From assembly GCA_036984305.1 (NCBI GenBank), contig BQWY01000001.1, positions 2,377,501-2,441,500 on the forward strand: a stretch of DNA of 64,000 nt, read 5' to 3'. Shown piece after piece: positions 44,472-60,883 of this stretch. A program made the translations under genes and the position numbers. The notes beneath the pieces are model-generated. The model saw nothing but the letters and a program-made list of their open reading frames with translations, searched no databases and had not been told where the DNA came from. The stretch comes from Nitrospira sp. (GTDB lineage Bacteria > Nitrospirota > Nitrospiria > Nitrospirales > Nitrospiraceae). The stretch's first letter is position 1. Each line of letters begins with the position of its first letter.

Positions 44472-45551
44472 TCAGACTTCGTCGGTCGAGGGCATAGAAG
44501 CCGTGCTGCCGCTGTGTGAATCCATTGCTTCTTGAATGGTGGACGCAATTTCATCCAAACTATCGAGCAACGAGGCAAATTCGTCCGTATAGAGTTTCGG
44601 AGGAGACGTGGTGGGCGCCTCCTCGGAAGCCCGTTTCGACTGCAGAGGTTCAGAGCGCACCGAGCTGGTCGCCGGAGACGCTCCAGGCGCTTTCAGCGTG
44701 TCGGTAATATACGACGCGGGAGTCGACGACAGATCCATCACGGCGGAGGCGAGCGCACCCATCGCACCGAGCCCTGGCTCCAACTGCACAACCGGACGCA
44801 GCGGGTATCGAGAATTGAGGGCCACCACAATTGCACTCTCTCCGGTATTCAAACGAACGCGGGTTCCCAGCGGATAGACGGACAACTGTTCGACGAGCGC
44901 CTTGAGTATCTCCCGCGGGAAGGACGTCCGTTCATTCTGGAACAACTCCGAGATCGCCTCATGCGGCAGGAGTCGCCGCCGGTAGGGGCGATGACACACG
45001 AGGGCGTCGAAAATATCGCAAATCCCGATGACGTGCGCGAACTCGTGAATGGCTCGCCCACGAAGCCGGAGGGGGTATCCCTGCCCGGCCCATCGTTCGT
45101 GCGCCTGACGGATCACCAATGCCAACCAATCGTACTTCGCGCCCAGGCGTGAAATCATGTCATGGCCAGCAATCGGATGCTGCTCAAGGAGCGCGCGTTC
45201 CTGAGGTGAGAGTCTTCCCGACTGGGAAAGGAGCGTGGGCGGTAGTGTGAAGATACCGATATCGTGCAGCAAACCCGCCAGGGTGAGTTGTTCGAGTTCC
45301 TCACCCGCGAAGTTGAGCCCAATGCCGAGCTTGGTGCCTAAAATGCCCACATGGACGAGGTTGCTGATGACAGGATCGCCCGAGGGTGCTGACAGCGCCG
45401 TAACGACCAACTCGTCTGACGTCGTGAGTGATCCGGCCATCCCTCTGCTGATCCACTCCAGCTCGGTGATGTTGATAGGCTGCCGGTTCCGCGCCGCCTC
45501 GCCGATTTTGAGAAGTTCCTCGGTGGCGAGTTGATACCAATCCGGGCTCAT
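44472..45551 (-). CDS. HD-GYP-type phosphodiesterase domain protein with altered metal site
   Basis: A 359-residue protein whose middle (about 60-230) is an HD-GYP domain: LLHDIG with His96-Asp97, EQHPIAG, the GYP triplet at 158-160, and ICDIFDAL. HD-GYP proteins usually hydrolyse c-di-GMP. In place of the usual HHExxDGxGYP it has AHERWAGQGYP, so one histidine metal ligand and the aspartate are missing, which may alter or abolish activity. The C-terminal 90 residues are Ser/Pro-rich. It is the last gene of the chemosensory operon and may be its output. Confidence 0.82.
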   Translation of the reverse strand: MSPDWYQLATEELLKIGEAARNRQPINITELEWISRGMAGSLTTSDELVVTALSAPSGDPVISNLVHVGILGTKLGIGLNFAGEELEQLTLAGLLHDIGIFTLPPTLLSQSGRLSPQERALLEQHPIAGHDMISRLGAKYDWLALVIRQAHERWAGQGYPLRLRGRAIHEFAHVIGICDIFDALVCHRPYRRRLLPHEAISELFQNERTSFPREILKALVEQLSVYPLGTRVRLNTGESAIVVALNSRYPLRPVVQLEPGLGAMGALASAVMDLSSTPASYITDTLKAPGASPATSSVRSEPLQSKRASEEAPTTSPPKLYTDEFASLLDSLDEIASTIQEAMDSHSGSTASMPSTDEV

Positions 45552-45591
45552 TGGAGTCCTTCTTCAATTGCTGCACAACCAGAACGGCACG

Positions 45592-46527
45592 TCATGCATG
45601 CACCAATCCGCCGATGGCCTCCCGTTCCACACGACCGGCCTCTTCCCACGCCTGAACCATACCGGTCACGGCCTGGATGCGGTTCTCGACAAGTTCCCAC
45701 CGCTGTGGTGTGATGACCATCCGACGATCTGTCACGATTCTCACGAACGTTGATAGCCCCTGGAAAAAATGCATGATCGGTACAGACTGGCGCTGCCGGG
45801 CCAATTCCCCTACTTGATCCAGCGTATCCTGAAGGGATTTCCACTGGCTACCGGCCGTCTCGGTCGGTTGCAGCGCCGTAGTCTTCAATGCGCTGATTGC
45901 ACTGGCAATGGCCGGCACTGCCACCCGAATTCGTCCCAAGAAATCCTCGTCTGCCTTTGACACGTCCTCAAAGTATTGCCGTATCCCTTGGCCGTCCACC
46001 TGGGACATACCACGCTCCAAATCCTTCTGTACTCGCTTCATTACGGTGTCGATCATGTGGCGATACATCGGGCTTTGACGCCGTTGCGCACTACGCAGTT
46101 CCTGAAGAGCCTGCAGGAAGTCCTTGGCCCGCCGTAGGTCGGTCGTGGGGGCATCAAAGGACACCGTAGCGGGACTGCCGGTGCTCTCGGCGACAGAGAC
46201 CGTGATCTGGGCCAGGGTCTGCCGAAGGCGGGGCAGCACATCGCCAGCGGCGGCACCATCGCCGCCTCGGAGTTGCTCGACAATGGGGAGTAGCCCGAAG
46301 ACGGATTCCTGAATGCCCGGCAGATCGACGGTCGCAGCAGATCCCCCTAAGCTGGTGAGTCCGCGGACGATCGCGTCCAGCGCATCGGTCGCCGCCGCCG
46401 GTTCAGCGACCTCCTCGAGGCGGACTAATGCCGTGAGGATCTGCCCAAGCCACTCATAAGCCTCCATTGCAAAGAGACCGAGTAGTTCTTTTTGAAAATC
46501 GTCTTCGGGGGCAATGTCATCTGGCAT
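45592..46527 (-). CDS. Hpt-like protein lacking the phosphorylatable histidine
   Basis: A 311-residue protein. Its first 110 residues follow an Hpt four-helix pattern, but the segment that would be HTLKGSA reads TSLGGSA, so the histidine is Thr58. The middle and C terminus are helical with no recognised domain. It lies between the receiver/coiled-coil gene and the HD-GYP gene. It cannot accept phosphate by the usual chemistry and may be a docking or regulatory partner. Family assignment is by pattern and is moderate. Confidence 0.65.
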   Translation of the reverse strand: MPDDIAPEDDFQKELLGLFAMEAYEWLGQILTALVRLEEVAEPAAATDALDAIVRGLTSLGGSAATVDLPGIQESVFGLLPIVEQLRGGDGAAAGDVLPRLRQTLAQITVSVAESTGSPATVSFDAPTTDLRRAKDFLQALQELRSAQRRQSPMYRHMIDTVMKRVQKDLERGMSQVDGQGIRQYFEDVSKADEDFLGRIRVAVPAIASAISALKTTALQPTETAGSQWKSLQDTLDQVGELARQRQSVPIMHFFQGLSTFVRIVTDRRMVITPQRWELVENRIQAVTGMVQAWEEAGRVEREAIGGLVHA

Positions 46528-46573
46528 ACCACGCTCCGGTCCGGCCCACCGCCACGGGCACGGCGATGTTGGA

Positions 46574-48163
46574 CTACCGATCGGCTGGGCCAGACCCGAG
46601 TTTCGAGGCCAGGCCCGCGATCTGGCTTAATTTCCTGGCCATGTCTTCAAGACGGCGATTGGCTTGCTCCGCGGCGCGCTCCGCCTCGGAGACACGCTTG
46701 CCAAGTTCATCCGCCCGTTCGTTGGCAGCGTGTAGGGACTCTTGCAGCTCGGGAATGCGAGACAGTTCCGACCTCGCCTTGTCGAGTTCCGCCGTCAGGT
46801 CGGCGACTCGCTCACGTTCTTCCTTTTCCTTTTCCTGCAGGCCAGACAGATCAGATTTGAGACCATTGACGCGGTCACGCTCCGAAGCCAGGAGCGCTTG
46901 GACACCGGCCAGTTCTGCTTTCAGTTGTGCAATTTCCGGCAGCCGCTGCTCTAATTCGGCCACCTTGCCTTGTTCGTCCTTCAGCGAAGCCTGCGCGTGC
47001 TTCAGGGAATCCTCGGCCGTATCCAGCGACGAGGTTAATTCGGTCACGCGTTGTTCCAAATCTGACACTTTACCTTTCTCTGTCTTGAGCGACGCCTCGG
47101 TCGATTTGAGGGATGATTCCAGTCCCTGAAGTCGGGAGATGCGTTGCTCCAGGTCGGTTACCTGCTGTACCAGGACGGCCTCCGCCGAACGCTCCGCCGT
47201 GAGCGCAGCTTCCAGGTCCTTAACCTTCTTTGCCGTCTCCTGAGCAGCCGCCAATGATGCGGTTATCGTGGCGGTGCGCTCTCGTTCGACCTCCAGAGCC
47301 TTCTCGGCCTCCCGACCCTGCTGAGCTTCTTCGCGCACCGATGTTAACGCCTCGGTCAGCTCAGAGATGCGTTGGCGTTCCGAAGCAAGCATCGACTCCA
47401 ACTCCGCCACTCGCTGGGTAGCCGACACGGCCACTGCGTGCTGCTCCTCAAGCGCCTTGAACTTGGCCCGTTCGCTCTCGAGTGCGGCTTCCAGTTCGGA
47501 CGTTCGGCGCGCCCCTTCCCGAACTTCCTCGAGTTCGCGAACCTGCCGAGTATTGCGTTCCCGCTCGGAGGCTAGCTCAGCTTCCAGTTCTTTCACGCGA
47601 CTCGCGGCAAGCCGATATGATTCAAGCTCCTCGTCGGTCGATGCCGCCGGCTTAGACGGCGCAGGTGATGGCGGCGAGACAGGTGCAGGAGAGGGGGCAT
47701 CGGCCAGTTTGAATGGAGCGGCAGTGCTCTGGCCTTGGAATGCCGATGGTGCTGCGGTGGCCTGAGGCGCAGCCGACGGACCCGCTTCGACTCGCTTCCC
47801 GAGAAGTGCCGCGACACGATCCTGAAGGGACGTGCCTTGAAACGGTTTCTTCAACACCCCGTCCGCACGGCAAGATTCCGCCTGTTTGGTCACGTCGTCG
47901 TTGACAATCCCAGAAATGAGGAGCACGGGAATCGAGGCAATCTTCGCATGCCCGCGGATATATCCGCACACTTCATACCCACTCTTGTCCGGCATGATGA
48001 CATCCGACACCACGACGTCCGGCGGATCTTTTTCCAAGAGAGCAATCGCTTCTTCGGCATTGGCAGCCAAGGTGACCGTCAAGCCGGCTTCTTTTAATAG
48101 GCGCTCAGCCACCTTGCGGACGGCGATGCTGTCATCGGCAACTAGGACGCGCGGCATAGTCAT
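46574..48163 (-). CDS. Response regulator receiver fused to a long coiled coil
   Basis: A 529-residue protein. Residues 3-125 are a receiver with the phospho-acceptor Asp54 (VVSDVIMPD), the acidic pair in VADDS and Lys in VLKKPF. After a Pro/Ala linker, about 170-510 is an almost uninterrupted coiled coil of Glu/Ala/Leu/Arg heptads. No DNA-binding or enzymatic output domain follows. Such proteins can act as polymerising or polar-targeting scaffolds. It is cotranscribed with the CheA hybrid, which could phosphorylate it. Confidence 0.85.
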   Translation of the reverse strand: MTMPRVLVADDSIAVRKVAERLLKEAGLTVTLAANAEEAIALLEKDPPDVVVSDVIMPDKSGYEVCGYIRGHAKIASIPVLLISGIVNDDVTKQAESCRADGVLKKPFQGTSLQDRVAALLGKRVEAGPSAAPQATAAPSAFQGQSTAAPFKLADAPSPAPVSPPSPAPSKPAASTDEELESYRLAASRVKELEAELASERERNTRQVRELEEVREGARRTSELEAALESERAKFKALEEQHAVAVSATQRVAELESMLASERQRISELTEALTSVREEAQQGREAEKALEVERERTATITASLAAAQETAKKVKDLEAALTAERSAEAVLVQQVTDLEQRISRLQGLESSLKSTEASLKTEKGKVSDLEQRVTELTSSLDTAEDSLKHAQASLKDEQGKVAELEQRLPEIAQLKAELAGVQALLASERDRVNGLKSDLSGLQEKEKEERERVADLTAELDKARSELSRIPELQESLHAANERADELGKRVSEAERAAEQANRRLEDMARKLSQIAGLASKLGSGPADR

Positions 48164-48193
48164 GCTCCCCCTCTTGCCATCAGGACTCGCGAC

Positions 48194-48655
48194 TTAGGCG
48201 GCCCGCCGGAGGTGTTCGTCCAGATGTGCAAACGACACGACCGGAACGTCCTGCCCCTGGTGTGTCCACCGTCCGATCAAGCCCGGTTGTAAGTCGGTCA
48301 CCGGTCGAATCATATCAACCTCTGCAGTTTCTAGCGATGGAATTTGCGAATCGACCCGAATCGCCACCTCGATCGTACCCCATTTCACCATCATACACAG
48401 GGTGGTCGCCTTATCTGGGGTCAGTGACCATTGACCGGCCAGATCATACACCGCATAGACGCTCTCCCCACGCCGAACGAGTTCGCGCAGATGAGGTGTC
48501 GTCCCGGGCATGGGCATTGACACCGGCCATGGCTCGACCCCCCCCACTTCGTGGGCTTTCATCGCAAAGGGCCGTCCACCAACCGAGAACAGGATCAGCG
48601 GGACGACGCGACGCGCCGCGACCTTCGCGATGAATTGTTTCGCGCCTCTCAGCAT
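48194..48655 (-). CDS. CheW-domain protein
   Basis: A 153-residue single CheW adaptor domain, beginning at VVPLILFSVGGRPFAMKAHEV and including ELVRRGESVYAVYDLA, which resembles the receptor/CheA-coupling interface. It is one of three CheW proteins in the operon and is distinct from the one next to it. It couples a receptor to the CheA kinase or stabilises the array. A start with Met at 48655 is plausible because it is 22 bp from the preceding gene. Confidence 0.85.
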   Translation of the reverse strand: MLRGAKQFIAKVAARRVVPLILFSVGGRPFAMKAHEVGGVEPWPVSMPMPGTTPHLRELVRRGESVYAVYDLAGQWSLTPDKATTLCMMVKWGTIEVAIRVDSQIPSLETAEVDMIRPVTDLQPGLIGRWTHQGQDVPVVSFAHLDEHLRRAA

Positions 48656-48677
48656 GGGATTGCCAATGCCACGTGTG

Positions 48678-49151
48678 TCACGAGGTCAGAGCGACCACCT
48701 GACTGGCCGATTCGGCTTCGTGCAGCAACCAGTCGGGATTAAGCACCAACGCCAAACCGTCCTGAAAAAGAAAGATCCCCCGGTACCAGAGCCGCTCATT
48801 CCCTTGGAGCATGGCTGGGAGCGGAAGAATGTCCTGGCGACGGATGTCCGTCAATCCGAGTACGCGGTCGACGGGGACCACGCAACGCGCTTGACCGTGG
48901 GCACATAACACATACCGGGAGTCGACCGTGACACCTTGCTCACGTAAGTGAAGCCTGGCGGCCAATTGCGAGTGCTCGTACGATTCTCCCAGGAGCACCA
49001 CGCTCGAACCCGGTTGGACGTCTGCCGTCGTCAGGACGCCCCGCACGGTCTCTGCCCAGATCGCCAAGATTGTAGATTGAAGCTGAACGACCAGAAATCT
49101 GGCGCCGAGCTTCTCGGCGGAGGGGGCAGCCACTCGCTGTCGAAATGCCAT
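48678..49151 (-). CDS. CheW-domain protein (diverged)
   Basis: A 157-residue CheW-like protein with the SH3-like strand pattern (ARFLVVQLQSTILAIWAETVRGV) and a conserved RCVVPVDRVLGL segment. It lies 19 bp after the hybrid CheA and 22 bp before another CheW gene. It is more diverged than the other two, so its pairing with a receptor is uncertain. Confidence 0.78.
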   Translation of the reverse strand: MAFRQRVAAPSAEKLGARFLVVQLQSTILAIWAETVRGVLTTADVQPGSSVVLLGESYEHSQLAARLHLREQGVTVDSRYVLCAHGQARCVVPVDRVLGLTDIRRQDILPLPAMLQGNERLWYRGIFLFQDGLALVLNPDWLLHEAESASQVVALTS

Positions 49152-49170
49152 GGGTCGTCACTCGGGGCGA

Positions 49171-52100
49171 TTAGCCTTGACGGGCGGACGAGGGCGTCCC
49201 CACCCAACGTTCGACCTCGGCAATCAACGCACGTTCTTCGACCGGTTTTGCGATGTAGCCGCTCGCGCCGATATTGAGCGCCAATTGCTTGTGTTTGTCT
49301 CCGGCCCGTGTCGTCATCACGACGATCGGAACGGTCTGGGTCTGCGGACGAGCGCGTAGGGCTTGAATCACCTCATACCCGTTCAACTTCGGCATTTCGA
49401 GGTCCGTAATAATCATGCGATACGCAGTCGTCGAAGCCTTCCGCACTCCTTCCTCACCATCCACCGCAGTATCGACGGTGTACCCGGCGTTTTCCAACAT
49501 GCGAGCCACAAATTTCCGAATGCTCAGGGAATCGTCGACCAATAACACGACCGGACCGACATGTCCGTGTCGCGCCTCCTCTTGCCCGTCCCCGGCTTCC
49601 CCCGACTCCAGGTTCGTCGGGGCTTCCAGTTGGACGGCGGCTTGCTCGGTGGCACCAATCCGTGCCACATCCACGACAAGGATGACGCGTCCCTCGGGAT
49701 CGATGGTCGCCCCGCTAAAATAGGACCGTTCAAGGACTTTGAGCGCGCCCAACGGCTTCACGACAATTTCCTGTCGCCCCAACAACTCGTCGACGGCTAA
49801 TCCCAACGTGCCCTGCGCGCCGCGCACGACCACGACCGGCGATCCGCCGGCGATCTCCCCACCCGGTGCGCCCGTGAGGGCATGACCCAGCGTTTGAATG
49901 GGTACCGCTTCCTCACCCATCTGAAGAATCGTTTGTCCGGCTATCGGCTGCAACGAGCTGGACGACGGAAGCGTCACTTCGCGGACACTGGATAAGGGAA
50001 TCGCATAGTGCAGCGGTCCGACGCGAACCATTAAGGCAGTGGTAATCAAGAGGGTAAGCGGCAAATTCAGCGTAAACTTGGTGCCCACGCCCTTCGCCGT
50101 TTCGATTTCGATGAACCCGTTCATGCTTTCGATCGTCTTCTTGACCGCGTCAAGCCCAACGCCCCGTCCGGCTTGATCGCCGATCGTTTCGGCGGTCGAA
50201 AACCCGGGCAAGAAGATCAGCTTGTACGCTTCGGCATCCGACATGGACTTGGCTGCCTGCTGGGTGATCAGACCCCGGGAGACAGCCTTGCTTTTAAGCT
50301 TTTCGACGTCCATTCCCGCGCCGTCGTCTTCGACCTCAATGAGAATTGAATTTCCGCGGTGAGCCGCGTGCAGATAGATCGTGCCCACCGCCGGCTTACA
50401 CAGCGCGACCCGTGAGCCGGTTGGTTCGATGCCGTGGTACACGGCATTCCGGACAAGATGGACGAGCGGATCGACAAGGCGCTCCACGATGCTGGTGTCG
50501 ACCTCGGTGTGTTCGCCGCTCGTCACGAGCGTCACCTCCTTACCTGTAGCACGCGCCATTTCCCGCACGGCACGACGGAATCGCGTAAATGGTGTACCGA
50601 CGGCCACCATGCGCGCACGGGCAATTTCGTCTCGCATGCCTAAGGTCAGATGGTGCAATTGGCTCATATCCTCTCGGGCACTCCGAATCGATGACGACAA
50701 CTGAGCCATAGACTCGGTCACATCCGCCGTCACTTCCGAGATTCGTCGTGCGAGGATGTTGAAATCGTCATACTTGTCGAATTCGAGCGCTCCGAAATCC
50801 TGAAGCCCTGGAATGGCGGGGCCTGGACTGTGACCGCTTGACTGCGAGGGTAACGTGAACGCATGCTTTTCCTCGAAGCCCCTGACCGTTTCCAGCATCT
50901 TGCCTTTGAAGGCCTGCACTTGGTTGGTCAACTGTTCGAGCGCCAAGAGACGTTGTTCGAGGCGACCGCGGCCGATCACCAACTCACCGACCAGATTGAG
51001 GAGATTCTCTAACCGCTCGCGGTTGACTCGGATGACGTCCGAACCTTGTGCGCCGCCTTGGTCTTCCGCCTGCGGTGCTTCCTTCGTGGCCCCCTCCATG
51101 ACGGGGGGTATCCCGACCGCGGACGGAACCGTAGTCCCTTCGATCATCGGCGACCCGTCCAGCCACCGCTTCAAATCCGCCACGACGGTTCGATACCGAT
51201 TCCGAACCTGTGGAATCATGCTCGCATCGCGACGCATCAGGAGTCGCACAACATCCACCGATTTCAGAATCGCATCGGTCATGCCGGCTACGAAGTGCGT
51301 CCGATTTTCTCGAATAGCGCCCATGAGGTCCTCCACGTGATGGACCAGGTCGCCAATCGGAGTGAAGCCCACAGTAAACGCGGACCCCTTCAGTGTGTGA
51401 GCGCTTCGGAACAATTGATTGATGAGTTCGGTACTCCTCGGATCCTTCTCGAGCTTGAGCAGAAACGATTCCAGAGCTTCGAGGTGTTCTTGCGCTTCGG
51501 GTACAAAGTACGACAGGACCTCCGGGTCAAGTTCCGGCAGGAAGTAGGCGTCCGGAAGATCCGTCGACTGTTCGACGCTGACAGTTTCCGCGTCCGGGCT
51601 CACAACGGGCGGAGGCCCGTCGACGGCCGACACGTGTGCAACCGGCACATGGGGCGGAAGGGCATGGACCGGATCGTCCGTTGGCGTCAATGAGGGCGGC
51701 ACCGTGGTCGACGCCGTGGGCGCCGGCTCGCACGCCTTCCTCAGATCATCCATGAGGACCGGGATGTCTCGCTGCAATTCGGCAACCTGCTCGGGTTTGC
51801 GCTGTATCAGTTGTCGGATGATACCCAGCGCACGAATTGTCAATTGGTGAAGCGACGCCGGCAGCGCCTCGCGTCGATCGCGGATGCCGCGCAGTTGATC
51901 TTCCAAAGGCAACGCCACATCGCCGATCGCTTGGTACCCGACCGTGTATGACGATCCTTTGATGGTATGCACCGCGCGGAAGAGATGGTGGATTCGATCG
52001 GGATCGTTGAGATTCCTCGACAGTTCGCCTGTATGCTCTTCCGCCGTAGCCAGGAGATCCATGATCTCCGGGACGAAATACTCTAGGATTTCCGCGTCGA

Positions 52101-52584
52101 CCGAGGGCAGCACCATGTCGGTCGTCCAGACTTTGTCGCCGTCCTCGCTCTCGGGATGGATGTGACTACTTCCGCAGGATGGCTCGATTGGAGACGAAAG
52201 AATGGACTGGTAACGGTGTTGCCAGGCATCAGCATTGAACGGTAATTCCCTCCCTGCGGACGACAGCGAATGGAGCTGCTCCCTGAGTGCCGCGGTCAAG
52301 TCCCGAAGCAATGTGACGACCTGAGGCCAAATGACCGCGGGTGTGGCCTTGGCATGTTCCAACACACGCTCGATGAGGTCGCCGAGTGAGGCAATACCGA
52401 CAAATTGATAGAGCGCGGCAGCCCCCTTGAGCTTGTGCCCCACGCGATAGTGCTCGTAGAGAGCATCAGCTGACGGCATCGAACCGTCCAGCGTGCGCAG
52501 GGTGGTCTCTAGGATCTGCAGGCCTTCGTTGCCCTCTGCGACGAAGACTTCAATCAAGTTGTCTCTAATGGAGTCGTCGCTCAT
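49171..52584 (-). CDS. CheA-type hybrid histidine kinase with three Hpt domains (ChpA/PilL type)
   Basis: A 1,137-residue kinase. Three Hpt domains carry His50 (HKLKGAA), His206 (HTIKGSS) and His396 (HTLKGSA). Then come the dimerisation helices (ENLLNLVGELVIGRGR), the HATPase domain with N-box RNAVYHGIEP, G1 DDGAGMD and G2 GRGVGLD, a CheW-like domain, and a C-terminal receiver with Asp in IITDLEMP. This order is that of type IV pilus ChpA/PilL kinases. It autophosphorylates an Hpt histidine and passes phosphate to CheY-like partners, and its own receiver probably acts as a sink. It is the core of the operon. Confidence 0.94.
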   Translation of the reverse strand: MSDDSIRDNLIEVFVAEGNEGLQILETTLRTLDGSMPSADALYEHYRVGHKLKGAAALYQFVGIASLGDLIERVLEHAKATPAVIWPQVVTLLRDLTAALREQLHSLSSAGRELPFNADAWQHRYQSILSSPIEPSCGSSHIHPESEDGDKVWTTDMVLPSVDAEILEYFVPEIMDLLATAEEHTGELSRNLNDPDRIHHLFRAVHTIKGSSYTVGYQAIGDVALPLEDQLRGIRDRREALPASLHQLTIRALGIIRQLIQRKPEQVAELQRDIPVLMDDLRKACEPAPTASTTVPPSLTPTDDPVHALPPHVPVAHVSAVDGPPPVVSPDAETVSVEQSTDLPDAYFLPELDPEVLSYFVPEAQEHLEALESFLLKLEKDPRSTELINQLFRSAHTLKGSAFTVGFTPIGDLVHHVEDLMGAIRENRTHFVAGMTDAILKSVDVVRLLMRRDASMIPQVRNRYRTVVADLKRWLDGSPMIEGTTVPSAVGIPPVMEGATKEAPQAEDQGGAQGSDVIRVNRERLENLLNLVGELVIGRGRLEQRLLALEQLTNQVQAFKGKMLETVRGFEEKHAFTLPSQSSGHSPGPAIPGLQDFGALEFDKYDDFNILARRISEVTADVTESMAQLSSSIRSAREDMSQLHHLTLGMRDEIARARMVAVGTPFTRFRRAVREMARATGKEVTLVTSGEHTEVDTSIVERLVDPLVHLVRNAVYHGIEPTGSRVALCKPAVGTIYLHAAHRGNSILIEVEDDGAGMDVEKLKSKAVSRGLITQQAAKSMSDAEAYKLIFLPGFSTAETIGDQAGRGVGLDAVKKTIESMNGFIEIETAKGVGTKFTLNLPLTLLITTALMVRVGPLHYAIPLSSVREVTLPSSSSLQPIAGQTILQMGEEAVPIQTLGHALTGAPGGEIAGGSPVVVVRGAQGTLGLAVDELLGRQEIVVKPLGALKVLERSYFSGATIDPEGRVILVVDVARIGATEQAAVQLEAPTNLESGEAGDGQEEARHGHVGPVVLLVDDSLSIRKFVARMLENAGYTVDTAVDGEEGVRKASTTAYRMIITDLEMPKLNGYEVIQALRARPQTQTVPIVVMTTRAGDKHKQLALNIGASGYIAKPVEERALIAEVERWVGTPSSARQG

Positions 52585-52654
52585 CCCGGCTCCTTGTCCC
52601 AGTCGGCCGACGGCGCCCGCGGAACACCTCTGGCTCCGCAGGTCCTCGTCGTCG

Positions 52655-54544
52655 TTACGCGAGCTTGAATTGACCGACTTGACCGCTCAATCCTTCAGCG
52701 AGCTTGGCCATTTCTTCGATGGTTTGACGCGTTGATTCCGTGGCTCTCTGAGTGGCAACAGCGCCGCCCGTGAATTCCTTGAGCGACCGCCCCACCTTTT
52801 CCGTCGAACTCGATTGCTCCGTCGCGGACGTCGCAATCGCAATGGCTAGCTCCGCGGAACGCTTCGCGATCGTTGAGATCTCTCCAAACACTTCACCGGT
52901 CTTCATGGCGGAAGCCGATCCCGCCTCCACAGCCTGCGTTTCGTGCTCCATCGCGACGACCGCGTCCTGTGTTTCGGTCTGAATGGTTTTGACGAGTTCG
53001 GCGATCTCACGCGTCGCCTGCGTAGAACTTTCCGCCAGCTTTCTCACTTGGTCGGCGACGACGGCGAATCGAGCACCGGCCTCACCTGCGCCGGCCGCCT
53101 CGATGGCCGCGTTCAACGCGAGCAGGTTGGTCTGGCTGGCGATATCGCGAATGGTAGACACGATCTGCGAGATTTCCAACGATCGATCGCCAAGAGATTT
53201 GATCTGTTTCGACATGCGTTGCACCGCGGCCCGGATTTCCTGCATGTCGTGCACGGTTTCTTGCACGGCTTGTCGTCCCCGTTCCGTCGCAACCAACACC
53301 TGCTTCGCACTCTCAGAGGAGGAATTCGCCGTGTCCGCCACCTGCTTCATGCTGGTGGTCAATTGTTCGACCGCGCCGAGTGTCCGGACCGACTCTTCTG
53401 CCTGGTGACGTGCGGTTCCCGACATTTGGGTGGCCGTGTCGCGCAAGGTTCCAGCGGACTTGTTCACCCGGTCGGCAGCATCACGGACCTGCCCGAGTAG
53501 CTTGCCAAACCGCGCCAACATGAGGTTCAGACCGTCGGCGAGGTTTCCGAACATGTCGGCCGTGACTTCGCCACGTTTCGTCAAGTCGCCCTTACCGACC
53601 TCGGAGACCATGACCAGGAAGGCCATCAGGCGCTTTTGCATTTGATCGCGCTCGTCTTCCGTTTGCACGAGACTGGTCAGGCGGTCCAACATCGCGTTAA
53701 ATGACTTGGCCATCTGGCCGAACTCGTCGTGCGTTTCGACCTTGGCGCGCGCCTGGAAGTTGCCGTTGGCCGCCTGCGTGGCGACGTCGGCAATGTGAAT
53801 GACGTTGCGCGAGAAAAAGTGCGCCAAGCGATACCCGAACCACAACCCCAAGCAAACGGCGGCGATACCGCCCACGAGCATGAGGTTTTTGCCGTTATCG
53901 GCAATCGACTTGGCATCTTCGTTGAGGTCGTTGGCGACATCCGTCATCGTCTTGACCTGTTCGCTGTGTCGCAACACGGCAAGATCGAACGCCGGCGTCA
54001 AGTTCACGGTGAGCGCCAAGGCACCCAATTCACGGAGTTGCTCTGATTGGTCGGCTGAAAGCTTCTTACTAAAACTGTCCATGTAGGCTTGGACGGCGCC
54101 CTTGGCATCGGTGAAGTAGGCGTGCAGGGCAGGCTTCAGCTCCGCTAGGTCTTTGGCCTCGTCACGACCTGCACGGGACACGCGAAGGGTCGTGCTTTCA
54201 TACGCCGCGATTTTTTGATTAATGGTCTCCTCGTACTTCGCCAATTTACCAAGGTCGGCCTCGGCGTCGCTTTGGCGTGTGACGTTGGCGACTTGCAGCA
54301 GAATTTGGTGATGGTCGGTCAGAGCCGTACCCACTTCGTTAAAGTCAGCCAGCGGGGTCACGTAGTCCACGTACACGGTTTGGGACTGACTCGCGAGTTG
54401 TCGCAGCTTGAAGAACCCCAGTCCTGCGATAAGCACGATGATCAAGCTCACAAGGCCAAATCCCACGATCAGCTTGGTTTCCGTCCGTTGGTCGCGGAAC
54501 CACGGCATTGTTTCCAACGCCAAATAGGATGTCTGCTTCTTCAT
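52655..54544 (-). CDS. Methyl-accepting chemotaxis protein (PilJ-like)
   Basis: A 629-residue receptor with a membrane helix at about 25-48, a helical periplasmic domain (about 50-210), a second membrane helix (about 221-240), HAMP domains (one directly after the membrane and a probable second near 310-370), and a cytoplasmic signalling hairpin whose tip reads [20 protein letters not shown]. Methylation-region helices are present, but CheR and CheB are not encoded nearby. It resembles PilJ, consistent with the pilus-type CheA. Its ligand is unknown. Confidence 0.92.
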
Positions 54545-54646
54545 GACGCGGTCCTCCTTCTCACTGTGCTCGTCAAGCTGTATCGTGGTGCTGTGGATCC
54601 AATCGACTCTCTAGGGCCACGAACCGGTAGGATGACGGGGTCCATG

Positions 54647-55135
54647 TCACCCCCCTTCAACGCGTGCGAGAAGGGCGGGCACTTCCACCATGCCACCCAT
54701 ACGCCCTTCGACCGGGAGAATGCCGGAGATGAACGGACGTGCTGCGCGATCCGGCTGGCTCGGGGAGGCGAGAACTTCGTCCCGAGACACGGTACGAATT
54801 TCTGGCACCTCGTCCACGATCAGACCGACTTGCTGCGCGCCATGCCTGATCACCACGGCGAATTGCTCGTCGCTGACTGTACCGCCAAGCCCCAGCGCCG
54901 AGCGCACATCAACGAGCGGCATGATCGTGCCCCGAAGATTGGCGACTCCCACAATCACCGCCGGCATCTTGGGAACCGGTGTGGTGTGCTCCACTGGAAA
55001 GACCTCCCGCACATACCGCAAATCGATCGCGAACAACTCCGTTCCAATGGTCACAAGGCATACGCGCAACGTCGCCCCGGCCAACTGGGCCGACGGCATG
55101 TGCGCGGGGATGACAGGAACCTCGATGTGGCTCAT
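54647..55135 (-). CDS. CheW-domain protein (PilI-like)
   Basis: A 162-residue CheW adaptor with LRVCLVTIGTELFAIDLRYVREV, VANLRGTIMPLVDVRSALGL and FISGILPVEGRMGGMVEV. It lies directly upstream of the receptor gene, 102 bp apart, matching the PilI position in pilus chemosensory clusters. It couples the receptor to the kinase. Confidence 0.9.
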   Translation of the reverse strand: MSHIEVPVIPAHMPSAQLAGATLRVCLVTIGTELFAIDLRYVREVFPVEHTTPVPKMPAVIVGVANLRGTIMPLVDVRSALGLGGTVSDEQFAVVIRHGAQQVGLIVDEVPEIRTVSRDEVLASPSQPDRAARPFISGILPVEGRMGGMVEVPALLARVEGG

Positions 55136-55175
55136 GGTTGAACGTATCCAGCAGCGATGACCGGCAGCGAATTTC

Positions 55176-55538
55176 TCAGTGCAGGGCCCGCTTGACCGCT
55201 GTCAGGAGGTCCTCGGACTTGAAAGGCTTCACGACATAGCCGTTGGCGCCCTGTTGCTCGCCCCAGAATTTGTCGCTGTCGTTCCCCTTCGAGGTGCACA
55301 GGATGACGGGAATGCCTTTGACACGATCGTCGTTCTTGAGGTCACGACAGGCCTGAAAGCCGTTGCGGCCGGGCATCACCACATCCATGATGACCAGATC
55401 GGGCTTCTCAACCACTAACTTGTCCTCCAGTTTGTCGGTGTTGGAGTAGGTCACGACCGTATGATTGGCGGACTTCAGAAAGCCTTCGATCATTTGCGCC
55501 TCGGCGAACGAATCATCGACCACTACAATCTTGCTCAT
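55176..55538 (-). CDS. CheY-like response regulator (PilG-like)
   Basis: A 120-residue single receiver domain: VVVDDS at 5-10, phospho-acceptor Asp52 in LVIMDVVMP, Thr in ILCTSKG and Lys in VVKPFK. No output domain, so it acts by binding a partner, as PilG does. The ATG at 55538 follows GGGGGAGG; the longer frame begins with a weak upstream start. It precedes the CheW gene by 40 bp. Confidence 0.92.
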   Translation of the reverse strand: MSKIVVVDDSFAEAQMIEGFLKSANHTVVTYSNTDKLEDKLVVEKPDLVIMDVVMPGRNGFQACRDLKNDDRVKGIPVILCTSKGNDSDKFWGEQQGANGYVVKPFKSEDLLTAVKRALH

Positions 55539-55603
55539 CTGAACCTCCCCCTTCAGTTGACGATTGTCCAATTACGATACAGACTCCACCGCTGGCCCTC
55601 AGA

Positions 55604-56338
55604 CTACCGCATGGGGTAGACGATGCTGAGCGCGCCAGCCAACTCGCCTTCTTTCCACCCTTCCTTCCGCATCCCCGTGATGTCTCGCTCGCCGCGAGGC
55701 GCACCGTGGCAGTACAGGCAGGATGCGCTCGCATATTCGGGATCCATAAGTCGATAGACCGGCCTTCCGTTCAGCATCGTGGCCTTGGCATACTGCTGTC
55801 CTTTTGGATGACGACTATCCGAAAACAATTTCAATACGTCGGCTTCGAATTCATCCGGCCGGTTATTTGGGTTCCGGTAATCCACACCGGTGAGCTTGAT
55901 ACGAATTCCTGTCTTCTTGTAAAACTTTTCACCCGTCTTTCGGGCAAATACCGCCGGCAAGAAACCTTTAAAGCCGACCCCGGCCTTATTGATGACGACT
56001 TGTGCGTCATCCACCACTTCTTTTTCCGCCTCCAGGAGACTGAGCAGCACATTCCCTTGCGGTTGACCAGCTGCCCGGCCAAGATCGATTTTGGTTGCGC
56101 TCCGGAATCGCTCGGCGACCTGAGAGGCGAGGAAGTCGCCGGTAAATCCCTTGTTGGCTTTGGACGGATCGTTGATCAATTCCTGATGCTCGGAAACGAT
56201 GCCACGACCCAGCTTGACCAATTTGATGAGCAATTCGCTCGTCTCGGCCTCCTCCGAGGCGTAGACGGAGGCGGCGAATACCGGTACGCCGCTCGTGAGA
56301 CACAGGCATGCGATGGCCGCAACAACGCGAGCGTTCAT
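55604..56338 (-). CDS. Periplasmic haem-binding protein, Tll0287/DUF3365 type
   Basis: A 244-residue exported protein with a signal peptide (MNARVVAAIACLCLTSGVPVFA) and a mainly helical domain of the DUF3365 family, seen in sensor kinases and chemoreceptors. Near the C terminus it has one haem c motif, CLYCHG at 207-211. The ATG at 56338 follows GGGAGG. As the first gene of the chemosensory operon, it could be a redox or gas sensor, or relay a ligand to the receptor two genes later; no direct evidence for that. The family link is by signature features. Confidence 0.8.
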   Translation of the reverse strand: MNARVVAAIACLCLTSGVPVFAASVYASEEAETSELLIKLVKLGRGIVSEHQELINDPSKANKGFTGDFLASQVAERFRSATKIDLGRAAGQPQGNVLLSLLEAEKEVVDDAQVVINKAGVGFKGFLPAVFARKTGEKFYKKTGIRIKLTGVDYRNPNNRPDEFEADVLKLFSDSRHPKGQQYAKATMLNGRPVYRLMDPEYASASCLYCHGAPRGERDITGMRKEGWKEGELAGALSIVYPMR

Positions 56339-56643
56339 AAATTCCTCCCGGGAAAAACGACAGTAAGGAACCTGCTGGTCAACAAGTATAGCGCCGATAC
56401 GCAAATGCGCCAGTCCGGTCCCTGGACTCCACCGACGCACTCGCCCGCCTCGATTGCTCGGCAACGGGGCATGGACCCTCCACCTCCTTATGCACCGCTT
56501 GATGAAGTTCGCAAAGAAAAATCAGAAATGTCGACACGCACTGACAAGTGGCGGGACACCGGCCGCGAAGACATCGCCCATGACATTCGCCCATGGCGAC
56601 CTGAGGCGGTCCGACTAGGAAAAGTTGGAGAGGCCGACTGGAC
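56339..56643. other. Intergenic region between the chemosensory operon and the cobalamin block
   Basis: 305 bp with no supported gene on either strand. It must contain the promoter of the chemosensory operon. A TATACT at about 56386-56391 (minus strand) is a possible -10 element, but no matching -35 was found. Confidence 0.4.
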
Positions 56644-57273
56644 CTATGTGGGATTCCGTGTCCAGACACGCTCCGGCTCGCCCGCATGACGGGCAAGATA
56701 GCGGGCGTACACAAACAAGCTATCGCTGAGGCGGTTGAGAAACACGACAAGAGCCGGGTCGATCGCTTCGACCCGTCCGAGTCGCACGCATGCCCGTTCA
56801 GCACGGCGACAAACGGTCCGTGCAACGTGTAAGGCACTGCTAGCGACGCCTCCTCCCGGCAGGATGAATTCCTCGAGCGGCTTCAAGTCCCGCTGGCAGG
56901 TATCCATTTGCCTTTCCAGTCTCGCGACGTCGGACGCGATGACACGTGGCATATTCGGAAAGATCTGACCCGGCGCCGTCGCCAGGATCCCTCCGAGGTC
57001 GAAGAGCTTGTTTTGTATCCACCCGAGCTCGGTCACTAAGACCCGATGAGCAGACGTACGGGGCGTATCGGCCTGCAGAAGGGCCACCGTCAGTCCCAGC
57101 TGCGCGTTCAGTTCATCGACCGTGCCGTACGCTTCGACGCGGGGACTGTCTTTCCACACCGATTGACCGCCTGCCAGCCGCGTTCGGCCCTTGTCCCCGG
57201 TGCGTGTATACACCTTGGTAATGCGCAACCGCCGTGGTCGTGGTGGGGGATCGGAACGGCGACGTGCTGTCAT
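56644..57273 (-). CDS. Cob(I)alamin adenosyltransferase, PduO type
   Basis: A 209-residue enzyme that transfers the adenosyl group from ATP to cobalamin or its precursor. Conserved motifs are TRTGDKGRTRLAGG near residue 25, YGTVDELNAQLG, and RRAERACVRL. The ATG at 57273 overlaps the stop of cobQ (ATGA) and is preceded by GGAGGT; the more upstream ATG at 57291 lies inside cobQ and would put that binding site within the coding sequence. It is cotranscribed with cobQ and btuB, so it follows riboswitch control. Confidence 0.93.
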   Translation of the reverse strand: MTARRRSDPPPRPRRLRITKVYTRTGDKGRTRLAGGQSVWKDSPRVEAYGTVDELNAQLGLTVALLQADTPRTSAHRVLVTELGWIQNKLFDLGGILATAPGQIFPNMPRVIASDVARLERQMDTCQRDLKPLEEFILPGGGVASSALHVARTVCRRAERACVRLGRVEAIDPALVVFLNRLSDSLFVYARYLARHAGEPERVWTRNPT

Positions 57274-58811
57274 GGGATGACCTCCAGGCAAAGCGCACGT
57301 TCAATTGCGGTGAGATCGACATACCGTTCGAGGTGTTCGGCCCAACGATGGACGGTCCGCTCCAAGACGGATGATACCGCCACAGACGTATCCGCCTCCA
57401 ATAGCTGCAAGCCCTTGCGCAGACGGATCCGATTGAGCCACGCCCGCCGGAAGAGAGGCGCGTCGAAGAGGCCGTGCACCGTGGTGCCCCAGACACGACT
57501 CCCGTGGCCGACGGCTCCTTCCGAAAACAACGTCACACAGGCGCCGTCCACCTCGCCGGAGTTTGCCACTTGCGACATGATGCGCACACAGGCGCCGGCG
57601 CCCGTCGTGGTTCGACCCATGTGAATCTGATAGCCGGAAATTGCATAGCCGCCGAGTGTCTCGAGGCCGATTATTTCGCCGGCAACCTGTCGACAGATCT
57701 TGGGGGATTGCCAGACCGTATCGGCATCGAGAAATCCCAAGCCCGCGGAATGTCCGCCATGCTCCAGCGCCTCCGGATCGGACAAGCTGTTTCCCAGCAT
57801 TTGATAGCCGCCACACACACCGACCAACTCCCCGCCCCCGTCGACATGCGCCACCAATGGAGCCGGGAACCTCCGCTCCCTGAGATACGCAAGATCGGAC
57901 AACGTGTTTTTAGTGCCCGGCAGAATGACGACGTCGGCTCCGACGAGTTCGCGGGGAGTGCGGATGTAGCGGAGCGCCACGTCCGGCTCTGCCTCGAGTG
58001 GAAGAAAATCCGTCACGTTGCTCATCCACGGCAACAGGAGTACTCCGATGTTGACCGAGTCTCGAGTAAACGCCACCGGACGCCCGGCAGCGGCGGGCAG
58101 ACCGTCCTCCGGTTCGAACCGACATTCGAAGAGATACGGAACGACTCCCAAGATCGGCACACCGGTACGATCCCTCAAGAAACTGATGCCGTCATGAAAG
58201 AGTGCGGGATCACCACGGAACTTATTGATGACGACGCCCAGCACCCGAGCCCGTTCGTTCGGGGTCAACAGTTCCAGAGTCCCCACGATTTGCGCGAACA
58301 CGCCGCCGCGCTCAATATCCGCTACGAGAATAACCTTGGCATCGGCATGCTCGACCATACGCCAGTTCACCAAATCACGATCGCGAAGATTCACTTCCGC
58401 GGCACTCCCCGCTCCCTCGATGATCACCAGGTCGCTCGATTCCGACATGCGCCGGTAGGAGTCGGTAATGGCGTCCCACAATTCGACCTGGAAGGTCCGA
58501 AAGTCCGAGGCCTCGCGGGTGTACCGCGGGATCCCCTGCACAATGACCTGAGCGCGCGTGTCCGACTCCGGCTTGAGAAGGATAGGATTCATGTGCACAG
58601 AGGGGAGGAGGCCGCAGGCCAGGGCTTGGACGGCCTGGGCGCGTCCGATTTCGCCACCCTCGTGCGTCACAAACGAGTTCAGCGACATATTTTGCGCCTT
58701 GAAGGGCGCGACACGTCGTCCACGACGTGTGTAGATTCGACATAGTCCGGCCGCGACGACGCTCTTGCCGACATCCGAACCTGTCCCCAGCACCGCCAAT
58801 GTTGAACTCAC
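57270..58811 (-). CDS. cobQ: Cobyric acid synthase
   Basis: A 513-residue amidotransferase that amidates four side chains of adenosylcobyrinic a,c-diamide. The N-terminal domain has the ATP-binding GTGSDVGKS motif, with the rest of the dethiobiotin-synthetase-like fold. The C-terminal glutamine amidotransferase has the nucleophile Cys in GVCGGYQMLG and the His in TTVHGLF. It starts 62 bp after btuB and overlaps the adenosyltransferase start. Confidence 0.96.
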   Translation of the reverse strand: MSSTLAVLGTGSDVGKSVVAAGLCRIYTRRGRRVAPFKAQNMSLNSFVTHEGGEIGRAQAVQALACGLLPSVHMNPILLKPESDTRAQVIVQGIPRYTREASDFRTFQVELWDAITDSYRRMSESSDLVIIEGAGSAAEVNLRDRDLVNWRMVEHADAKVILVADIERGGVFAQIVGTLELLTPNERARVLGVVINKFRGDPALFHDGISFLRDRTGVPILGVVPYLFECRFEPEDGLPAAAGRPVAFTRDSVNIGVLLLPWMSNVTDFLPLEAEPDVALRYIRTPRELVGADVVILPGTKNTLSDLAYLRERRFPAPLVAHVDGGGELVGVCGGYQMLGNSLSDPEALEHGGHSAGLGFLDADTVWQSPKICRQVAGEIIGLETLGGYAISGYQIHMGRTTTGAGACVRIMSQVANSGEVDGACVTLFSEGAVGHGSRVWGTTVHGLFDAPLFRRAWLNRIRLRKGLQLLEADTSVAVSSVLERTVHRWAEHLERYVDLTAIERALCLEVIP

Positions 58812-58873
58812 GTCATCTACCTTGGCGACGCGAGCCGGACGCGTGTGCAGCGTCCGGCCGCACCTGCCCCGGT

Positions 58874-60883
58874 TCAGTAAGTGTATTTGACACCGGCAAA
58901 AATGGATCGGATCGGGATGCCAAACCCGTAGATTTCTTCGTAGTTCTCATTAAACAGGTTCTGAACGCGCGTGTACACGTGCCAGTGTTTTGTCACGTCG
59001 TAACTTGCGGCCAGGTTCACGACACCGAACGATCCGAGTTTTTGGGCCGGGGTGTTGGCAATATCGTTGTTCCGGGCGCCCACGAAGCGGTAGTCGATGT
59101 AAACACGGGCCTGTTCCACAGGTTGATAGGCGAGCCCCACCGAGGCCTGGTCGATTGGCCATCGCGGTAAACGGTTGCCGGTGGTCAGATCGCGCGTATG
59201 CGTATTGGTATATTGCGCCCTGACCTCAAGCGTCCGGGTTACCTGTGCCTTGACGGAAAATTCCCACCCCTGGCTCCGCGCCTGCGCGATATTTAAAGGA
59301 CAGAATCCGAATGTATCCGCAGGACACAAAGTGGGCGCGCCCAGTAAGGGAAACTGGATGAGATCGCGGAAGTGATTCCAAAAATAGATCCCGCTCAGGG
59401 TGATTCGCCCCTTCCAGAGAATCTGGTCCACTCCGACATCGAGACTCTGACTTCGCTCGGGCTTCAGGTTGGGATTGTTCACCGGGAACCCGTCAGCCAG
59501 GAAGTACAGGTCGTTCATCGTGGGGGCTTTGAATCCCGTCGAATAACCGCCGCGCAGTTTGGTATTTGTCTCCGATATCAGATATCCCGCCGTGGCCCGG
59601 TAGGTCGTCGCATCACCAAAGATGTTGTAGCTGTCCTGCCGCAAGCCGGCCGTGGCAAAGAACCGCTCCCAAAGGTTCAGCTGCGCCTCGATGAACCCGG
59701 CGTTGGACGACAGAATGCGCTGGGGGGGGGTTGACCCAAAGTTCTGGGTGTTCTCGCCGATATCCTCTCGGAATTGGTACCCAGCTGTGATCAACAACGG
59801 TTTGCCGATCTGAAAATTGTGCTGCCATTCCAGACGGTGATTCACCGTATTGATGTGGCTCGAAAACGGGAAAAAGCATGTACTGGGGTCGGCTGGGAAA
59901 CCACAGAAGGGGTCCGGCGTGATGAACTGCCCGGTCGTCAAATTGCGGCCGGACGGTCCGCTATGTGAGCGAATGCGTTCCATTCCTTGCGCCAGCGTCA
60001 GTCGCTGTGACCACCACGCCGTCAAGGGCTGCACGTACGTCCCGCTCAGCACCATATTTTGCTGCGTCAGTTTGCTTCCGTAAATATCCGCAGGTTGGCT
60101 GTTCCCATCGAAACCATCGAAGTCCGTGTCCGAATTCCACCATCGCAACGCGAACTCGAGACGCCCATCTTTCGGCAGCGCCACCCCCATCTTCGCCGAT
60201 GCCTGCCAGTTGTGAAATCCGTCGCGCTCCGTTGCGCCCCGCTTGTAGTTGACGGTCGAGAAGGCGCTGGTGTCCCATCGGGTCAGAGCGATGGCGAAAT
60301 CGAACGGTCCCGTAGCCCCCGACGTGGTCACTCCCTCACGAAGCGTTGCAAATGAGCCGAACTCCGCAAATGCGCTTGCCGTCGGGCGGCCATCGCCCCG
60401 CTTGGTCACAATGTTGATCACGCCACCGATGGCATCGGATCCGTACAACATGCTCTGCGCCCCGCGCAGGATTTCGATGCGCTCGATATTGTCCACCGTC
60501 AGCCCCCCGAAATCGAACAACCCGGACGTCGGACTATTGACAATGACACCATCGATCAGGACCATCGTATGGTTGCTTTTCGTCCCGCGCATCTGGACGG
60601 TGGCGAGATTGCCGGGGCCTCCGGCTTGAAACGCGGTGATCCCTTGCGCCAAGCGCAATCCGTCGAAGACGGTGTGCATTCTCTTGCGCGACAATTCCTC
60701 GCCCGAGATAACCTCAACCGAGCTGGTCAGGTGACTCACCGGAGTGGGTGTTTTGGTGGCACTGACGACCACTTCTTCGACCTTGACTGGTTCTTCCTCC
60801 TCCAAGGCGGCCTGAACCGGCGTGACATACCCTCCCGCAGCGGACACCACAATGCCCCACAGGGCCACGACAACGCGATACAT
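58874..60883 (-). CDS. btuB: TonB-dependent outer-membrane cobalamin receptor
   Basis: A 669-residue receptor. The signal peptide is MYRVVVALWGIVVSAAGGYV ending near VQA, the TonB box-like segment reads EEVVVSATK, the plug domain spans about 55-160 (RIEILRGAQSMLYGSDAIGGVINI), and the C-terminal beta barrel ends in an aromatic residue (GVKYTY). The assignment to B12 rests on the riboswitch immediately upstream and the cobQ, adenosyltransferase and btuFCD neighbours; sequence alone shows only a TonB-dependent receptor. Length and order match BtuB-like systems. Confidence 0.9.
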   Translation of the reverse strand: MYRVVVALWGIVVSAAGGYVTPVQAALEEEEPVKVEEVVVSATKTPTPVSHLTSSVEVISGEELSRKRMHTVFDGLRLAQGITAFQAGGPGNLATVQMRGTKSNHTMVLIDGVIVNSPTSGLFDFGGLTVDNIERIEILRGAQSMLYGSDAIGGVINIVTKRGDGRPTASAFAEFGSFATLREGVTTSGATGPFDFAIALTRWDTSAFSTVNYKRGATERDGFHNWQASAKMGVALPKDGRLEFALRWWNSDTDFDGFDGNSQPADIYGSKLTQQNMVLSGTYVQPLTAWWSQRLTLAQGMERIRSHSGPSGRNLTTGQFITPDPFCGFPADPSTCFFPFSSHINTVNHRLEWQHNFQIGKPLLITAGYQFREDIGENTQNFGSTPPQRILSSNAGFIEAQLNLWERFFATAGLRQDSYNIFGDATTYRATAGYLISETNTKLRGGYSTGFKAPTMNDLYFLADGFPVNNPNLKPERSQSLDVGVDQILWKGRITLSGIYFWNHFRDLIQFPLLGAPTLCPADTFGFCPLNIAQARSQGWEFSVKAQVTRTLEVRAQYTNTHTRDLTTGNRLPRWPIDQASVGLAYQPVEQARVYIDYRFVGARNNDIANTPAQKLGSFGVVNLAASYDVTKHWHVYTRVQNLFNENYEEIYGFGIPIRSIFAGVKYTY

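Follow-up and report, generated by a model that had tools for sequence, protein, structure and literature searches.

Closest described systems

The Pil-Chp system of Pseudomonas aeruginosa, a member of the Tfp class, comprises a CheA with multiple Hpt domains and a C-terminal receiver, together with Hpt-like domains that lack a phosphorylatable His, in a genome that encodes pilus motors. Judging from the available part of its description, these features are shared by the ten-gene chemosensory cluster of Nitrospira sp. reported here. Unlike Pil-Chp, the Nitrospira receptor has a 4HB_MCP_1 sensor domain, PilK- and ChpB-like genes are absent, the pseudo-Hpt is encoded by a separate gene, and a haem protein and an HD-GYP-like protein are added. 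FrzS of Myxococcus xanthus consists of a receiver plus a coiled coil. The accessible part of its account (PMC1974792) describes a protein linked with pilus motility that contains a receiver domain, which is the point of likeness; the FrzS domain, however, is a pseudo-receiver, whereas the Nitrospira receiver-coiled-coil protein keeps its phospho-Asp. As far as the available portion of the source goes, the pilG-pilJ/pilL sets of Synechocystis (PMC7076178) have in common with the Nitrospira cluster a CheY-CheW-MCP row and a CheA; in contrast to those sets, the latter has no PatA-type gene and adds haem, coiled-coil, pseudo-Hpt and HD-GYP-like genes.

For the sCache_heme (DUF3365/Tll0287) family, the sole experimental study found (PMC12889525) ascribes to the domain the properties of an NO sensor or a redox protein and reports no stable complex with oxygen. 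A stand-alone member from P. putida bound NO weakly and showed redox-like behaviour rather than that of a sensor, and the reported rule is that stand-alone proteins serve in redox reactions, only the fused ones being sensors (PMC12889525). The Nitrospira protein shares with this family a PF11845 score over the cut-off, the CXXCH motif, export and Tll0287 as the nearest solved fold. It differs in that it is stand-alone yet heads a chemosensory operon, and in that it lacks a second Cys of the redox type.

Organization of the gene cluster

The window, a 64,000-nucleotide stretch of the Nitrospira sp. genome, contains a minus-strand run of ten genes (44472-56338). Spacers within the run measure 19-102 nt, while the flanking gaps are larger (305 nt upstream and 518 nt downstream), and it is therefore plausible that the ten chemosensory genes form one operon. 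From its position, the 305-nt gap before the operon (56339..56643, minus strand) is the probable promoter region; a sigma-70 scan of this gap gave no site on the operon strand, and the promoter and terminator scan returned fewer matches than were obtained in shuffles. The ORF map and Pfam analysis confirmed the ten genes, their order and their strand as listed in the initial annotation, including the ATG of the haem gene at 56338.

Its statement that CheR and CheB are absent was likewise upheld by the Pfam reading: no PilK/ChpB (CheR/CheB) partner was found among the ten genes, and the operon is without a dedicated CheR/CheB methylation loop. Such partners are not regarded as class-defining, and cyanobacterial sets are not known to carry them. 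When CheR, CheD and CheB of the same genome were used as queries against 80 loci around related CheAs, matches occurred in only four, namely L038, where the match represents an adjoining flagellar set, and the outgroup loci L075, L079 and L080, where it was to CheB. In several relatives, a gene for an AAA_22 ATPase lies inside the operon; we take this ATPase to be ExeA/MshM-like and tied to pili or secretion.

Conservation among relatives

The core of the operon, which runs from cheY through the degenerate Hpt gene, was kept in nearly every relative read, and its distribution among these sequences indicates that the pathway is old in Nitrospira. Rows were scored only where the locus encodes a receptor 560-740 aa long ("fused" meaning longer than 600 aa), and loci cut before cheY were left out of the haem-gene scoring. 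In the 54 rows thus scored, the haem gene was at the operon head in 40, an in-place wreck in seven and absent in seven. The HD-GYP gene was present in 46 of 51 rows and missing in five; L074, where the contig breaks off shortly past the pseudo-Hpt gene, was excluded from this count. The order DUF3365-CheY-CheW-MCP was found in all ten further same-family genomes, in each of which the best haem orthologue was read.

The initial annotation held that its interpretation would be refuted if the haem and HD-GYP genes proved to be variable neighbours in relatives. In part this is the case, to the extent of the 14/54 and 5/51 rows; however, the losses follow clades, and the wrecks sit at the original place in seven loci. 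The haem gene, too, is an old part of the operon. Since the rest of the operon was retained where the haem gene was lost or wrecked, the pathway does not depend on it. Tree support was by SH-aLRT only, and the row of the window has a long branch (0.43) and an unsure placement. A link of haem-gene loss to ammonia oxidation was considered and rejected. AMO, counted over 50 genomes, was present in 15, comprising 7 of the 14 that had lost the haem gene or kept only a wreck of it and 8 of the 36 in which it is intact; loss follows clades.

The haem protein and the receptor

The first gene (55604..56338) encodes a stand-alone periplasmic haem protein of 244 aa with a signal peptide and a CLYCH motif, which scored 89.6 bits against PF11845 (DUF3365/Tll0287, sCache_heme; gathering cut-off 24.1). 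CXXCH was present in 41/41 operon orthologues, window included. The best structural match of its predicted model was Tll0287 (5b82; Z 11.5, runner-up 7.0), which came clearly first solely in this second structural comparison and not in Foldseek; Foldseek alone gave no match at E < 0.001 for either this model or that of the pseudo-Hpt. In a search of solved chains, a 12-orthologue profile (E 0.019) performed more weakly than the single sequence (E 0.0016).

Oxygen sensing, suggested initially, was dropped as the first choice, since the family is reported to form no stable oxygen complex. Another reading would make the protein a periplasmic redox or electron-transfer protein that merely shares the transcript and has no part in signalling. 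The behaviour of the P. putida protein (PMC12889525) is in keeping with this, as are the nearness of the model to stand-alone Tll0287, the repeated loss of the gene while the pathway stays, and the nine PF11845 matches in the genome, several of them stand-alone. Against it, the haem gene directly precedes cheY in most scored rows and in all ten further relatives, and the mature part of the protein contains no second Cys in 41/41 orthologues (the test being complete in 39, as L022 and L060 are without a homologous N-terminal part), so that Cys/His ligation of the redox type is impossible. In six other CXXCH-bearing PF11845 proteins of the genome, inspection of the sequences likewise revealed no additional Cys within the haem domain; the missing Cys therefore does not distinguish the operon protein within the genome. 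A comparable pairing of haem protein and receptor is also found in L130, where a second stand-alone haem protein is flanked by two receptors, one haem-fused and the other without CXXCH in its sensor part. Taken with these observations, a purely redox function appears possible but rather unlikely.

The receptor (52655..54544) consists, according to Pfam, of a 4HB_MCP_1 sensor, HAMP and MCPsignal. It had been termed PilJ-like, a description that can apply only to its signalling part, if at all, the Pfam PilJ domain being absent. Only two chemoreceptors are encoded in the genome: the operon receptor, adjoined by the stand-alone haem protein, and a flagellar receptor, in which the same haem domain is fused (CISCH). 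As the only other receptor carries this domain in fused form, the operon haem protein is likely a trans-acting sensor subunit of its receptor, a role predicted from sequence comparison.

Kinase, coupling proteins and receivers

CheA (49171..52584) comprises, by Pfam and alignment, three Hpt domains with His, H-kinase_dim, HATPase_c, a CheW domain and a C-terminal receiver. The phospho-His was aligned in 60/60 sequences for Hpt1, 55/60 for Hpt2 (with five gaps) and 60/60 for Hpt3. The kinase shares with the Tfp class several Hpt domains, a C-terminal receiver and the absence of a P2 domain. According to the accessible part of PMC10542144, however, ∼93% of multi-Hpt CheAs belong to either ACF or Tfp, and the feature thus does not tell these two apart.

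Three CheW proteins accompany the kinase, one well conserved (54647..55135; 109.6 bits) and two divergent (48678..49151 and 48194..48655; 37.6 and 31.7 bits, respectively, with a cut-off of 23.5). CheY (55176..55538) is a single receiver (85.2 bits) whose phospho-Asp was kept in 55/55 sequences. In the second receiver protein, in which Pfam detected a receiver and which continues into a long coiled coil (46574..48163), this residue was kept in 64/64.

The pseudo-Hpt and the HD-GYP-like protein

The degenerate Hpt gene (45592..46527) gave a marginal Pfam match (24.7 bits, cut-off 24.6). Alignment and model revealed Thr58 at the phospho-His site and a helical C-terminal half. Among 61 sequences this site was occupied by Thr (55), Met (2), Ser (2), Ile (1) or Ala (1), and never by His. 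The model superimposed on the CheA P1 domain 1tqg with a TM of 0.81 on the target and an rmsd of 2.2 (Foldseek E 1.0). The P1 fold is hence present, and the phosphorylatable His is missing, as in certain Hpt domains of the P. aeruginosa pilus kinase ChpA, to judge from the part of its description available.

The last gene (44472..45551; HD_5, 91.1 bits) encodes an HD-GYP-like protein in which, by alignment, the HD pair, His125, His151, GYP and Asp179/182 are invariant in 53/53 sequences. Such retention might suggest that the protein is an unusual but active c-di-GMP phosphodiesterase. PmGH, which belongs to the same fold family and shares the GYP motif, provides the opposing evidence: in the available portion of PMC4159591, H189 and H276 are metal ligands and K225 is catalytic, and Ala at each essentially abolished activity. 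The equivalents of all three are missing in 53/53 sequences (no His at 59-66, Ala/Val150 and Leu/Ile/Val100). An active enzyme was rejected on these grounds and is very improbable; the protein is probably a pseudo-enzyme with no phosphodiesterase activity on c-di-GMP, as predicted from its residues, and a c-di-GMP-degrading end of the operon is not supported.

Output of the pathway

Receptors, flagellin, PilT and haem proteins were counted in 28 chosen genomes, not in all 80 loci. The operon receptor was found in 28/28 and was the sole receptor in ten. Flagellin was absent in eight, and all eight keep the operon receptor as their only receptor, which argues that the system is not flagellar. 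A PilT-family motor scored over the cut-off in 26/28. In the genome of the window itself, seven T2SSE matches were detected, two of them in reading frames 367 and 424 aa long, presumably the size of PilT/PilU. The pathway probably steers pili rather than flagella, although motors of this kind are common, so that PilT co-occurrence carries little weight. These distributions agree with the initial assignment to a conserved pathway of the pilus/alternative-function type.

An output other than pili, such as exopolysaccharide, cell contact or development, would define an alternative-function system. The operon encodes a multidomain response regulator, a typical feature of that family according to the accessible part of PMC3447774, and the two genomes without a PilT-family match over the cut-off (G001 and G016) still retain the operon. 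On the other side stand the motor in the remaining genomes, the CheY-CheW-MCP arrangement as in pilH-pilI-pilJ of Synechocystis (available part of PMC7076178) and the resemblance of the His-less pseudo-Hpt to ChpA, in what is available on that kinase. We consider such an output a serious possibility that nonetheless falls short of being probable.

Proposed function

The reading that we prefer, and to which we would give about an even chance, is a type IV pilus/alternative-function chemosensory pathway with haem input in trans, pilus output and a pseudo-enzyme tail. The exported c-type haem protein would respond in the periplasm to a shift in redox state or to a gas, for example nitric oxide, and would relay the signal in trans to the 4HB domain of its receptor, which would set CheA activity via the CheW proteins. 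Phosphoryl groups may then pass from CheA to CheY and to the receiver-coiled-coil protein, as the His and Asp residues that this requires are conserved. Judging from co-occurrence, the output would most likely be type IV pilus extension or retraction, not flagellar movement. Since they have lost active-site residues, the pseudo-Hpt and the HD-GYP-like product would probably serve as binding partners that dock or sequester the receivers; the pair could possibly form a ligand-binding brake. A more specific proposal, which we put forward tentatively and consider doubtful, is that the stand-alone c-type haem Cache protein is a detachable receptor subunit that binds periplasmic NO and signals in trans via the haem-less receptor, while the pseudo-enzyme tail tunes the receivers by a route that involves neither phosphotransfer nor c-di-GMP turnover.

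Nitrospira, a nitrite oxidiser, grows as flocs and biofilms beside ammonia oxidisers. If the haem protein is the input, the pathway would provide a direct link from a nitrogen-cycle gas or redox state to pilus behaviour, and the haem protein-receptor pair offers a case for deciding whether chemoreceptors borrow a separate haem subunit. Should the detachable NO-sensor proposal be true, it would be an exception to the reported rule, under which sensing is confined to fused proteins and stand-alone ones serve in redox reactions, and would imply NO- or redox-driven control of pili in Nitrospira.

Organization of the chemosensory operon

The initial annotation of a ten-gene set was correct in gene content, order and strand. 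The operon consists of ten co-directed genes on the minus strand (window positions 44472-56338). The first to be transcribed encodes an exported haem protein; genes for CheY, CheW, a receptor, CheA, two divergent CheW proteins and a receiver protein with a coiled coil follow in this order, and the last two encode a degenerate Hpt protein and, at the end, an HD-GYP-like protein. The CheA carries three Hpt domains and a C-terminal receiver. Intergenic gaps measure 19-102 nt within the operon, versus 305 nt on its upstream and 518 nt on its downstream side. Upstream in this 4.35-Mb genome (window positions 56644-60883) are cobalamin genes, which we take to be PduO-like, CobQ-like and BtuB-like; CobQ is a common neighbour of the operon in relatives.

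Conservation and history within Nitrospira

For comparison, 80 loci around related CheAs were retrieved, and the genomes carrying them were almost all Nitrospira. Throughout Nitrospira, the core genes (CheY through the degenerate Hpt) stay in the same order, often between a cobalamin gene upstream and, on the downstream side, a membrane-protein gene, lpxD and fabF. CheB immediately follows CheA in three outgroup clusters (L075, L079, L080), whereas the Nitrospira clusters contain no CheB. At one locus (L038:44-6243), the operon's haem gene is immediately preceded by flagellar cheR, cheD and cheB.

Gene gain and loss were mapped on a tree of 61 receptors, with the haem gene scored in 54 rows (loci with a receptor of 560-740 aa and not cut before cheY) and the HD-GYP-like gene in 51. 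The haem gene heads the operon in 40 of the 54 rows (window included), is wrecked in place in seven and is absent from seven, requiring four changes on the tree. The wrecks, which carry frame breaks and lie before cheY, were found at loci L028, L030, L032, L034, L052, L057 and L065; loci L029, L039 and L042 and the deep rows L056, L059, L062 and L077 showed no remnant of the gene. Because the wrecks occupy the expected place of the haem gene, the sequences indicate that it was formerly there and then decayed more than once within one branch. This branch contains many ammonia-oxidising Nitrospira. A tie between haem-gene loss and AMO was rejected, as loss does not follow AMO presence.

The HD-GYP-like gene occurs in 46 of the 51 rows, in a long form in 33 and a short one in 13; its distribution takes a single change on the tree, and the gene is missing from two loci that have the haem gene (L047, L070). 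The operon likely grew from its core by addition of the haem gene and, third, the HD-GYP-like gene, a direction that the tree leaves unproven.

A haem orthologue (E <= 1e-60) was detected in 10 of 18 further genomes of the same family, this genome not counted, and in none of 12 genomes from other families of the order. In all ten, CheY, CheW and the receptor follow it. The HD-GYP-like gene adjoins its operon neighbours in seven of these same-family genomes (L133-L139); other matches are paralogues located elsewhere.

Kinase, receivers and output

The phospho-accepting histidine of CheA is kept in the first (60/60), third (60/60) and second (55/60, gaps in the other five) Hpt domains. The phospho-Asp is likewise kept in CheY (55/55), the coiled-coil protein (64/64) and the CheA receiver (65/70, five gaps). 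According to the available text of PMC10542144, ∼93% of multi-Hpt CheAs belong to the alternative-function (ACF) or type IV pilus (Tfp) class, and the pilus kinase ChpA has His-less Hpt domains that are not phosphorylated in vitro; ChpA is described as having 8 Hpt/Spt/Tpt domains (PMC10896506).

Only two receptors occur in this genome, the other being located in a flagellar set with CheA, CheR, CheD and CheB (L100:12891-15611). Among 28 chosen relatives, mostly MAGs, so that absences are soft, the operon receptor was found in all 28 and was the sole receptor in 10; flagellin was missing from eight, all among these 10, and a PilT-family motor scored above cut-off in 26 (exceptions, G001 and G016). 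The operon is not flagellar, and these counts fit a pilus or alternative output, in agreement with the pilus-type reading proposed initially.

The degenerate Hpt and HD-GYP-like proteins

In the degenerate Hpt protein, the phospho-His position is occupied by Thr in 55 of 61 sequences (Met 2, Ser 2, Ile 1, Ala 1) and by His in none, while the S-A-A-T stretch that follows is fixed in 61/61. Among CheA P1 domains, 1tqg matches its model best (TM 0.81 on target). In the HD-GYP-like protein, H96, D97, H125, H151, D179 and the GYP motif are conserved in 53/53. A c-di-GMP-degrading end was not sustained, as the places of three residues of the HD-GYP phosphodiesterase PmGH are changed in every sequence: H189 (on the nearest reading, Asn64; His is absent from 59-66 and stands at 67 in only 2/53), H276 (Ala 50, Val 3) and K225 (Leu 34, Ile 18, Val 1). 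Substitution of each by Ala is described in PMC4159591, as far as its text was available, as essentially abolishing hydrolysis. Because the histidine and the PmGH-essential residues are replaced, both proteins seem to be kept for a purpose other than textbook chemistry.

Proteins of the long form carry a second pseudo-Hpt, fused to their HD-GYP part. An AAA_22 ATPase gene precedes the HD-GYP-like gene in several relatives, and a 1027-aa protein (L022:10921-14004) reads as an AAA_22-like ATPase part at its start, an HD-GYP-like part and a pseudo-Hpt in one chain.

The haem protein and sensing in trans

The haem protein matches PF11845, with CXXCH in 41/41 operon orthologues, and its model best fits the solved stand-alone haem protein Tll0287 (Z 11.5, 136 residues, 3.1 A; next match, Z 7.0). 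In the literature searched, DUF3365 and chemotaxis appear together in one paper, a 2026 preprint (PMC12889525) that names the family sCache_heme. The word Nitrospira (word-start search) does not occur in it; its available text gives Nitrospirota as rich in the domain. Judged by titles and abstract openings, no paper found in that literature on Nitrospira with CheA, chemotaxis and type IV pili, or with chemosensory and nitric oxide, treats the operon.

In the preprint's available text, NO-sensor behaviour is ascribed to a member that has HAMP and two membrane helices but no axial Cys, and redox-protein behaviour to a stand-alone member having this Cys; in neither case was the oxygen complex stable (PMC12889525). 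The suggested oxygen sensing is thus disfavoured; with it and the c-di-GMP-degrading end set aside, the initial interpretation is half right, its pilus-type and haem-linked parts standing. The operon protein is stand-alone, like the redox-type member, yet lacks its axial Cys (PMC12889525): no Cys outside CXXCH was found in the mature protein of 41 orthologues (39 full tests). Besides CXXCH, none of the Cys, His or Met positions is the same in all 41 (His177 38/41, Met198 37/41, Met188 33/41). For these two reasons, the haem iron is predicted to have a sixth place that may be open or water-filled, as in the NO-binding member, a feature that does not distinguish the operon protein from the other PF11845 proteins of this genome. 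Nine PF11845 matches occur in the genome, some of them within frames as long as those of kinases or receptors.

The flagellar receptor carries a fused haem domain (CISCH), plus PAS and HAMP domains. By analogy, the strongest hint of a sensory role is that one receptor of this genome is haem-fused and the other has a haem protein next door. At another locus (L130:1-3672), a stand-alone PF11845 protein is flanked by a haem-fused receptor on one side and, on the other, by a receptor whose sensor part lacks CXXCH, giving a second instance of a stand-alone haem protein adjoining a receptor. The sharp question raised is whether a stand-alone haem protein can serve as a receptor's sensor in trans.
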